From positions 78,880 through 142,879 of the forward strand of contig JAOZUQ010000001.1 in assembly GCA_029938635.1 (NCBI GenBank): 64,000 nucleotides of DNA, written 5' to 3'. The notes beneath the pieces are model-generated. The model was not told where the DNA came from and did no database searches. It saw nothing but the letters and a program-made list of their open reading frames with translations. This document shows, piece after piece, positions 47,343-50,618 of the stretch. Source of the DNA: Candidatus Aminicenantota bacterium. GTDB taxonomy: Bacteria > Acidobacteriota > Aminicenantia > UBA2199. The position numbers and the translations under genes were made by a program. Each line of letters opens with the position of its first letter. Position 1 is the first letter of the stretch.

Positions 47343-47762
47343 ATGTCAAAACTTATAAGATTTGGAGTTTCACTTAGTTCTGATCTGCTTAAACAATTTG
47401 ATAAACTGATCGACCTAAAAGGATATAAGAACAGATCCGAGGCTATAAGGGACCTGATAAGGGAAGAACTTATCTCGGAAGAATGGAAAGAGGAGGGGAG
47501 GGAAACCGTCGGAGTTTTCAGCCTGGTTTATGATCACCACAGGAATGATCTATCACAGGTTATAAACAATATACAGCATGATAATCTTGACATAATCCGC
47601 TCTTCAACCCATGTTCATATTGATCATAAAAACTGCCTGGAAGTAATAATTCTCAAAGGAAAAAGCAGTGAGATCAAAAAGCTGACAGACCGCCTTACAA
47701 GCACTAAAGGTATTAAGCATGGAAAGCTTATTATGACATCGACCGGATCAGATCTCACCTGA
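47343..47762 (+). CDS. nikR: Nickel-responsive transcriptional regulator NikR
   Basis: RHH N-terminus (LIRFGVSLSSDLLKQFDKLIDLKGYKNRSEAIRDLIRE) and metal ligands THVHIDHKNCLEVIILKG. Confidence 0.95.
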   Translation: MSKLIRFGVSLSSDLLKQFDKLIDLKGYKNRSEAIRDLIREELISEEWKEEGRETVGVFSLVYDHHRNDLSQVINNIQHDNLDIIRSSTHVHIDHKNCLEVIILKGKSSEIKKLTDRLTSTKGIKHGKLIMTSTGSDLT

Positions 47763-47770
47763 AATTCCTG

Positions 47771-48490
47771 TTATCTGTATATATACGGGACTTCCAGTGA
47801 ATTGCTTTCCATCAGGTTTTTATCAGAAAGTATTTTCTTCGATCCCCCTATGGCTTTGATAATACTATTATTCAGAATCATAACATTGTCACAAATCTCT
47901 CCGATCATATTCAGGTCGTGACTTACTATAAGTTTCGTCCCTTTAAAATCCTGAATTAATCCGGCCAGCTCTTTTCTCCCTCCGGGATCAAGTTCATTTG
48001 AAGGTTCATCCAGAAGAAGTATTTCCGGACTACGGGCAAATGCGGCTGCCAGACAGACTCTTTTTTTTTGACCGAGGCTCAAATGATGACTGCTTCTCAA
48101 CTCGAATCCGTCAAGCCCGGCTGAATTGAGGGACTTCTTCACGATATCATTAATTTCTTCTTCCGAGTATCCGAGCTTGTTAAGCCCGAAAGAGATGTCT
48201 TCCTCAACATGCGGCATGAAGAGTTGATCATCCGGATTTTGAAAAACAAAACTTATTTTCTTTCTGATATCATTTATATTCTTCTCTGATTTAATTTCTC
48301 CATTGATAATTATCTCACCACTATTGTTAATAAGGCCTGACAACGCAAGCAGGAGTGTCGTTTTCCCGGCTCCATTAGGCCCGATAATTCCCAGGGATTC
48401 ACCTTCTGCAACTTTAAAGGAAATATTTTTAAAAACTTCAATTCCATCAGGATATGTATAACTTATGTTCTTCACTTCTACAATCGTCAC
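47771..48490 (-). CDS. cbiO: Energy-coupling factor ATPase, Ni/Co (CbiO/NikO)
   Basis: GIIGPNGAGKTTLLLALSGLI...LSLGQKKRVCLAAAFARSPEILLLDEPSNELDP. Confidence 0.92.
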   Translation of the reverse strand: MTIVEVKNISYTYPDGIEVFKNISFKVAEGESLGIIGPNGAGKTTLLLALSGLINNSGEIIINGEIKSEKNINDIRKKISFVFQNPDDQLFMPHVEEDISFGLNKLGYSEEEINDIVKKSLNSAGLDGFELRSSHHLSLGQKKRVCLAAAFARSPEILLLDEPSNELDPGGRKELAGLIQDFKGTKLIVSHDLNMIGEICDNVMILNNSIIKAIGGSKKILSDKNLMESNSLEVPYIYR

Positions 48491-49122
48491 TGCAATCCTC
48501 CATTTCCATCATATCCTCTCATCAGCATTGCATGATATACTCTTTCAGCCCTCTCATAGCTTTTAATGAACAGGATCGCAAGTATCTGACTGTATATTTT
48601 GAATATCCCGGACCCTCCGGTGCCACCTGACCTCAGCTTCACAGCTCTTATCATTTTTTCCATCTCTCCCGTCAACAGGAAAAAATACCTGTACATAAAT
48701 GAGAGGATCATGATCATTATCCGGGGAAAATGCCATCGGGAAAGGGTTTTCATAATATCTGAAAATCTTGTGACCGATACCAGAAGCACCAGAGAAAAAA
48801 TACTTAAAAATGACCTGACCGAAAGTATCAGCGAGTGACTCAGCCCGGATTCCATAAATATAGAGTTAAGTACTATTACCGGGATGATCAGCGGCAGGAT
48901 AACAAGTGTCCTCTTTACAACATGTTTAACCGGGACACGCGAGAAAATCAAGATGATTATCAGAAGTAGTAACAGAGGGAGTGCTGAAAATGATATATAG
49001 TCACCGGGCAATATAGTAAGAATAAGAACAAGTAAGATAACAAATAAAATTTTAACACCCGGGGATAACCTGTGGACAGGAGTGTCAAGCCCGCTGAAGT
49101 GATCCCAGAATGAGTGCCTCAT
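48487..49122 (-). CDS. cbiQ: Energy-coupling factor transmembrane protein (CbiQ/NikQ)
   Basis: Polytopic; MIRAVKLRSG...SYERAERVYHAMLMRGYDG coupling motif. Confidence 0.9.
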   Translation of the reverse strand: MRHSFWDHFSGLDTPVHRLSPGVKILFVILLVLILTILPGDYISFSALPLLLLLIIILIFSRVPVKHVVKRTLVILPLIIPVIVLNSIFMESGLSHSLILSVRSFLSIFSLVLLVSVTRFSDIMKTLSRWHFPRIMIMILSFMYRYFFLLTGEMEKMIRAVKLRSGGTGGSGIFKIYSQILAILFIKSYERAERVYHAMLMRGYDGNGGLQ

Positions 49123-49739
49123 ATTTTTTTCAACTCCAACAGGCCAGGTTTTAATTTTTTGATCATACCCAGAATCAGTACAGTTATAAAACCTTCACCA
49201 ACCCCCGCAAACAAATGAGATGAAAGCATAGCTATCATCCCTGCCTTCAGCGGTATCGTTCCGGAGACTATTAATTCCACCGCACAAATTGCAGCAGCAA
49301 TAAATACTGCCGAAAATGCCGCTATAAATGCTCCTGAAATATACAACTTATTAGAAAATATCTTGAAAATATAATAACCAAGAACGGCCTGGATAACTGC
49401 AATATTCATAATATTCGCACCTGCGGTAATTATTCCTCCATGCTGAAATAGAAACGCCTGAAGCAGAACTGCTGAAGTAGTTATCAGAAATCCCGATAAA
49501 GGGCCGAGAAGTATTGATATCAAAACTGCACCTGTAAGGTGAACCGATGTCCCTCCGAAAACCGGAAAACTTAATAATTGAGCAGTGAAAACAAAAGCGG
49601 CAGACAATCCCATGAGAGGTATCCTCTCAGGTCTTATCTCTTTATCCAGTTTTTTTACCGAAATATATAAAAGAGAAGCTGATACGGCACTCGTTGATAT
49701 TAAAACAGGAAGCGAGAGGAATCCATCAGGAATGTGCAT
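49119..49739 (-). CDS. cbiM: CbiM/NikM substrate-specific component
   Basis: MHIPDGFLSLPVLIST N-terminus; GGTSVHLTGAVLISILLGPLSGFLITTSAVLLQAFLFQHGGI. Confidence 0.95.
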   Translation of the reverse strand: MHIPDGFLSLPVLISTSAVSASLLYISVKKLDKEIRPERIPLMGLSAAFVFTAQLLSFPVFGGTSVHLTGAVLISILLGPLSGFLITTSAVLLQAFLFQHGGIITAGANIMNIAVIQAVLGYYIFKIFSNKLYISGAFIAAFSAVFIAAAICAVELIVSGTIPLKAGMIAMLSSHLFAGVGEGFITVLILGMIKKLKPGLLELKKI

Positions 49740-50190
49740 CCAAGCTCCTCTTCCGGTCTCTTCTGGCTAAAGCAAAAAAGAGAACCCCTGTCAGACCGAA
49801 TATCACCATGATACCTGATAATATCTTAATTCTTCTACCCACAGGTTTTTCAATTGCCTCATCCTGAACTATAGAGGAACCATTAATAATGACATATTTT
49901 GTCCCTCCATGTCCGGTCCCGTCATTGACAACCACCTTCCATTTCCCATCCGCATCAGGGAAGAAAAGGAAACGCCCGTTCCTGTCTGTTACTCCGACCT
50001 GGAACAGCTCATAACCATTTTCAGGTGAATATATAATCACATCTGCATGTGAAATCGGGTCACCGGAATCATATCTTGCCTCGATGCCGGTCCCGCCATT
50101 TATCAATACGATATCAACTCCATGCGAAAATAGGGATAATGGAAATAAAAGAGCGGCAAAAACAATAATTGATAAGAATAATCTATTCAT
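49726..50190 (-). CDS. NikL/CbiL-type accessory component of Ni/Co ECF transporter
   Basis: Signal peptide, HGVDIVLINGGTGIEARYDSGDPISHADVIIYSPENG, C-terminal TM; first gene of the CbiMQO operon. Confidence 0.78.
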   Translation of the reverse strand: MNRLFLSIIVFAALLFPLSLFSHGVDIVLINGGTGIEARYDSGDPISHADVIIYSPENGYELFQVGVTDRNGRFLFFPDADGKWKVVVNDGTGHGGTKYVIINGSSIVQDEAIEKPVGRRIKILSGIMVIFGLTGVLFFALARRDRKRSLDAHS

Positions 50191-50209: not shown

Positions 50210-50236
50210 GTGTTACCATTTTTGTAATCGTAGCAC
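50210..50236 (-). promoter_or_regulatory. Putative NikR operator
   Basis: Plus strand GTGTTAC-N13-GTAGCAC, 13/14 positions of the GTGTTAC-N13/14-GTAACAC pattern reported for deltaproteobacterial NikR. Confidence 0.75.
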
Positions 50237-50255
50237 ACGAAAAACCCAAATTCAA
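50227..50255 (-). promoter_or_regulatory. Sigma70-type promoter for nickel-transporter operon
   Basis: Minus strand TTGAAT-N17-TACGAT; the -10 lies inside the putative NikR box. Confidence 0.55.
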
Positions 50256-50278: not shown

Positions 50279-50451
50279 GGGGACGGTTCCATTTTTGTGT
50301 ACAATATATTACAGGCGTAGCCATCCATCGGCTGTTGCGGCCACCTTGTATGTTAGATTATTAAATTAGTTTTACTTAATTTAATAGCTTGGGGCCGCTG
50401 ATAATATCGAAAGCCAAAACTGAGTTGTCTATAAAAAAGAGAACCGTCCCC
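50279..50451. mobile_element. MITE-like nested inverted-repeat element (noncoding)
   Basis: Outer arms GGGGACGGTTC (50279-50289)/GAACCGTCCCC (50441-50451); inner GCGGCC/GGCCGC and ATTAAATTA/TAATTTAAT inverted repeats. Confidence 0.55.
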
Positions 50452-50512: not shown

Positions 50513-50596
50513 GCCGAAGTGGCGGAATTGGTAGACGCGCAAGTTTCAGGTATTTGTGAGAGCAATCTTGTGGGGGTTCGAGTCCCCCCTTCGGCA
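50513..50596 (+). tRNA. tRNA-Leu (anticodon CAG)
   Basis: GCCGAAG/CTTCGGC acceptor; anticodon arm CAAGT-TTCAGGT-ATTTG; long variable arm; T arm GGGGG-TTCGAGT-CCCCC. TATAAT at 50498-50503. Confidence 0.94.
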
Positions 50597-50618
50597 CACT
50601 TAATCAAATCCAGATCAT

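Follow-up and report, generated by a model that had tools for sequence, protein, structure and literature searches.

A probable NikR operator fused with the core promoter of the nikLMQO nickel-uptake operon in an Aminicenantia bacterium

Introduction

The NikR consensus GTGTTAC-[N13/14]-GTAACAC was derived by comparative genomics in metal-reducing delta-proteobacteria (PMC545781). The E. coli NikR operator at nikABCDE, as cited in the same paper, is GTATGAT-[N13/14]-ATCATAC. In Caldithrix abyssi, a NikR-like motif is reported at nikR, TonB receptors, and nik/cbiMNQO (PMC5317091), and the NikR of Helicobacter pylori controls the outer-membrane receptors FrpB4 and FecA3, as cited in PMC11247825. 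Our literature search found no description of nickel control or nickel uptake for the widespread uncultured Aminicenantia.

Here we describe a NikR-type box upstream of a nikLMQO operon in a 64,000-nt stretch of DNA (the window) from an Aminicenantia MAG (G000), a 3.05 Mb draft that is 92.7% complete. The locus resembles the delta-proteobacterial regulon in its consensus, spacing, and transporter family, and the presence of a separate nikK with its own site is shared with Desulfovibrio vulgaris (PMC545781). The host differs from that regulon in belonging to the Aminicenantia and in carrying the half-site variant GTGCTAC, while the class as a whole differs in its promoter-embedded geometry and in having TonB receptors and other ECF subunits among the targets. 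Caldithrix abyssi is comparable at the level of the motif type, since in both cases a NikR-type motif stands ahead of TonB receptors and of ECF transporters for nickel in a non-proteobacterial host; it belongs to another phylum, and the account in PMC5317091, as far as it goes, mentions no nikLMQO accompanied by a separate nikK. The E. coli operator is likewise a 27-28 bp inverted repeat for NikR, whose binding in our host is predicted, but the half-site and the transporter are different according to the account in PMC545781. Outer-membrane receptors stand behind NikR boxes both in Helicobacter pylori, as summarized in PMC11247825, and in Aminicenantia relatives, whereas the boxed outer-membrane gene of the host genus encodes a 16-stranded porin-like barrel and not a TonB receptor.

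Results

The box GTGTTAC-N13-GTAGCAC lies at positions 50210-50236 of the window (plus strand, GTGTTACCATTTTTGTAATCGTAGCAC). Read on the operon strand, it becomes GTGCTAC-N13-GTAACAC, with one mismatch in 14 half-site positions to GTGTTAC-N13/14-GTAACAC and with half-site starts 20 bp apart. Towards nikL, the minus strand carries in order the -35 hexamer TTGAAT (50255-50250), a 17-nt spacer, the -10 hexamer TACGAT (50232-50227) with the box (50236-50210), the ribosome-binding site GAGGA (50198-50194), and the ATG at 50190, which is 19 nt from the end of the box. The extended -10, TGC-TACGAT (50235-50227), is mostly the left half-site of the box. A preliminary description of this DNA had reported the box over the -10 of a TTGAAT-N17-TACGAT promoter, and this proved accurate: the sequence is present, TACGAT lies inside the box, the range 50210-50255 takes in the box plus the -35, and the consensus given there agrees with PMC545781. 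Its reading of the box as an operator was essentially right and is supported here, while the second site at nikK, the phylum of the host, and the class-wide extended -10 role of the half-site had been missed.

The nikL promoter matches the consensus at 8 of 12 bases only, which explains its absence from the list of our consensus scan, and it is credible because it is conserved in sister species. In the window, the box is the sole match at zero or one mismatch. Matches with three mismatches numbered six against 2.7 expected, which is no better than chance. Between the promoter and a tRNA-Leu gene (50513-50597), inverted GGGGACGGTTC arms surround about 150 bp (50279-50451); the arms are kept in two relatives (G001 and G002) with different interiors, and the whole resembles a small element of the mobile or repeat type.

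The operon comprises four overlapping genes on the minus strand. The first, nikL (49726-50190, 154 aa), encodes a probable NikL-family ECF accessory subunit (NCBIfam NF058648, E=2.8e-14, under the curated cut-off). It is followed by nikM (49119-49739, 206 aa), a CbiM family S component (PF01891, E=5.3e-57), by nikQ (48487-49122, 211 aa), a CbiQ family T component (PF02361, E=2.2e-31), and by nikO (47771-48490, 239 aa), an ECF ATPase (PF00005) whose best NCBIfam matches are ECF ATPases under the cut-off. Thus the M, Q, and O components of a NikKMLQO-type ECF transporter are all present; no NikN was noticed in the nikLMQO operon, and a separate contig encodes a NikK-like DUF4198 protein behind a box of its own. 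As the preliminary description had stated, nikR (47343-47762, plus strand, 139 aa) is in the window and convergent with the operon, 8 bp from nikO. Its product has an N-terminal ribbon-helix-helix domain (PF01402) and a C-terminal NikR_C domain (PF08753), scores 200.5 bits against a cut-off of 105 for NF003381, and has 2bj1 as its best PDB match (E=2.6e-43). Named records near this NikR include Candidatus Aminicenantes MAGs. The residues H79, H90, H92, and C98 are invariant among 16 aligned NikRs, and by assignment via E. coli NikR we take these three histidines and one cysteine to be the high-affinity nickel ligands.

The host has two [NiFe]-hydrogenase genes, one for a full-length large subunit and a second that is more distant. 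A search of the host for CO dehydrogenase, another possible user of nickel, found none. The genome has no CbiM other than nikM and no CbiB. No B12 riboswitch was found at the nikLMQO operon, and one cobalamin riboswitch is present on another contig of the host.

The exact box pattern occurs at two places only in the 3.05 Mb genome, both beside nik-type genes. The second is a perfect palindrome (C36:6322-6348) situated 10 nt before the NikK-like DUF4198 gene. Genes for a 372-aa porin-like outer-membrane barrel (L044:5146-6264, minus strand) and a 152-aa secreted protein (L044:4635-5093, minus strand) diverge from nikK across this box. Control of the porin-like gene by the box is a candidate only, because the recognized promoter points towards nikK; no box was found at the homologues of the porin-like protein outside the genus. 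We also considered whether this protein might be a dedicated nickel channel, but its predicted fold is a 16-strand barrel of the general-porin type, and together with the unboxed homologues this leaves a nickel role as no more than a candidate.

At up to one mismatch, the genome gave 4+2 matches against 0+0 for the reversed-pattern control, whereas at up to three mismatches there was no excess (101+108 against 145+133). Only near-exact matches carry weight since loose matches are at background, and further regulon members proposed from three-mismatch scans of the host were dropped for their chance-level counts. The one-mismatch matches C48:40928 and C73:29935 were also rejected as sites, as both are within long ORFs. 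In the host, the N14 spacing gave only two-mismatch matches, fewer than the control.

The genus is represented by two further genomes, G001 and G002, and both retain the box, the -35, and the -10 upstream of nikL; the preliminary description had named absence of the box from relatives' operons as evidence against an operator. In both, the box reads GTGTCAC-N13-GTAGCAC on the plus strand of the window, with a T-to-C change in one half-site, and the promoter has the same TACGAT with TTGAAA at 17 nt. The 13-nt spacer between the half-sites and the flanks has diverged from the host. Conservation alone is moderate evidence, because G001 and G002 are close relatives, and the nikLMQO version of the box was found in these three related genomes only. 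At nikK, G002 has a perfect box, while G001 has a change in one half-site but retains TTGACT-N17-TACAAA. In G002, the box and nikK are separated by a gene for a 251-aa protein (HHAMEY...; L113:5484-6239); a related start occurs in G003 (L140:5923-6177), a remnant is left in G001, and the protein is absent in G000.

To survey the class, we collected 22 near-exact boxes from 41 genomes. We selected them for similarity to the box and for a nickel-type context, and not by promoter; the set includes the altered nikK site of G001, taken in by homology. Three of them precede nikLMQO, four precede nikK or its preceding gene, 12 precede TonB-dependent receptors, two directly precede an ECF S component, and one precedes a NiCoT/UreH-like permease (G026, L133:6863-7576), a label given from sequence with a weak Pfam match. 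At 17 of the 22 sites, a hexamer that matches TTGACA in at least five of its six positions is located 16-18 nt upstream of the left half-site TAC, at exactly 17 nt in 14 of these; the window site, whose -35 scores 4/6, was left out of this count. With shuffled upstream DNA, the count averaged 0.37 and never exceeded 4 in 2000 shuffles, and the opposite orientation gave 0. The half-site GTGTTAC thus supplies the TGn-TAC of an extended -10, so that binding by NikR and binding by RNA polymerase should be mutually exclusive. Two sites (G040 C4 and G026 C1) are arranged differently: there the box follows closely on a promoter of the TTGACA/TATAAT type and so covers the start point. Both the embedded and the start-point layouts would suit repression by blocking of the polymerase.

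A 173-aa ECF S component (PF12822, not CbiM; L049:11934-12455, L139:4643-5167, and L246-L258) follows NikR-boxed TonB receptors ahead of CbiQ/CbiO, and in G006 and G020 it stands directly after the box. The genomes with this box-linked protein are mostly without CbiM, and it is a candidate for a new importer of nickel or a nickel chelate.

For a view of other phyla, we scanned 80 NikR loci from named genomes at up to one mismatch and found 10 boxes. Most stand 34-89 nt ahead of the start of nikR, and the genomes concerned belong to Calditrichota, Omnitrophota, Nitrospirota, KSB1, and other groups, with a Bacteroidota MAG among them. Several of the 10 boxes share the -35 spacing. The same 80 loci gave no match to any of four control palindromes or to the E. 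coli-type box.

Not every genome pairs the gene with the box. We found no nikR in either G002 (63% complete) or G003 (89% complete), both of which have boxes at nik-type genes, and it is present with no recognizable box nearby in several relatives, e.g., G004, G027, G035, G037, and G038. In G011, nikR (L046:1677-2093, minus strand) contains one in-frame TAG, which reflects either a broken gene or an assembly error.

Discussion

Our results make us confident that the nikLMQO nickel-uptake operon has its NikR operator at 50210-50236 and that this operator is fused with the core promoter. When cytoplasmic nickel is sufficient, the Ni-loaded NikR tetramer would bind both half-sites through its ribbon-helix-helix domains and so lie over the -10 and the start point expected near 50220, shutting out RNA polymerase. 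Bound NikR is expected to exclude the polymerase because the left half-site is at the same time the TGn-TAC of the extended -10. When nickel falls, NikR would leave and the TTGAAT-N17-TACGAT promoter would be free; NikL, NikM, NikQ, and NikO would then be made and would import nickel for the [NiFe]-hydrogenases. The perfect box on C36 would control the NikK-like periplasmic subunit likewise.

If the resemblance were due to chance, a promoter and its spacer would have no operator role, and the three-mismatch motif, which is no commoner than the controls, agrees with this. The exact matches, however, are rare and both at nik-type genes, and the box is conserved in sister species despite a diverged spacer and recurs class-wide, which makes chance extremely unlikely. 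The palindrome might also be the operator of another regulator, with the nearby nikR a coincidence; this could account for boxes without a detected nikR in G003, and in G002 as assembled, and for the several nikR genomes without a nearby box. Yet both of those assemblies are incomplete, the same palindrome stands directly upstream of nikR in several phyla, and it was derived for NikR by comparative genomics (PMC545781), so we consider another regulator very unlikely.

The sign of regulation and the metal also have to be weighed. Since NikR can activate some genes of Helicobacter pylori, it might activate rather than repress from the site at 50210-50236, but a box over the -10 and the expected start suits blocking of the polymerase, and genes for uptake would be expected to be silent when nickel is plentiful; activation is very improbable indeed at this operon. 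A real NikR site could also serve an operon that mainly imports cobalt, or nickel and cobalt together. The families CbiM, CbiQ, and CbiO are named for cobalt, the host has one cobalamin riboswitch elsewhere, and NikKMLQO systems beside B12 genes or B12 riboswitches exist (PMC2667541). Against this stand the NikR box, the NikL subunit, the neighbouring nikR, the lack of a B12 riboswitch at the operon and of CbiB in the genome, the two [NiFe]-hydrogenase genes, and the lack of a second CbiM. A mainly cobalt or mixed importer is unlikely, and the operon context, together with the NikR ligands, favours nickel over cobalt, as the preliminary description had proposed. The context is not proof, because CbiM-type transporters can carry cobalt as well as nickel.

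Judging from the genomes compared, this is very probably a NikR switch of a known kind in a lineage for which we found no earlier report of it, built class-wide into the promoter itself. Beyond the preliminary description, we add the class of the host, a second site, a regulon that spans the class, and the rule that the half-site is the extended -10. These data would assign nickel control and uptake in a widespread uncultured class and extend the GTGTTAC NikR box well beyond the delta-proteobacteria, and the rule makes NikR boxes easy to recognize. Among the genes behind the boxes, outer-membrane receptors and an ECF S component emerge as candidates for nickel import. We tentatively propose, with confidence a little short of evenly balanced, that the GTGTTAC half-site has a dual use as operator and extended -10 in the Aminicenantia and several other phyla and that the boxes mark a new importer of nickel or a nickel chelate. 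Where one half-site serves both functions, neither the operator nor the target promoter would be free to diverge without the other. If true, this dual use could explain why the half-site has persisted across phyla while that of the enterobacterial NikR differs.
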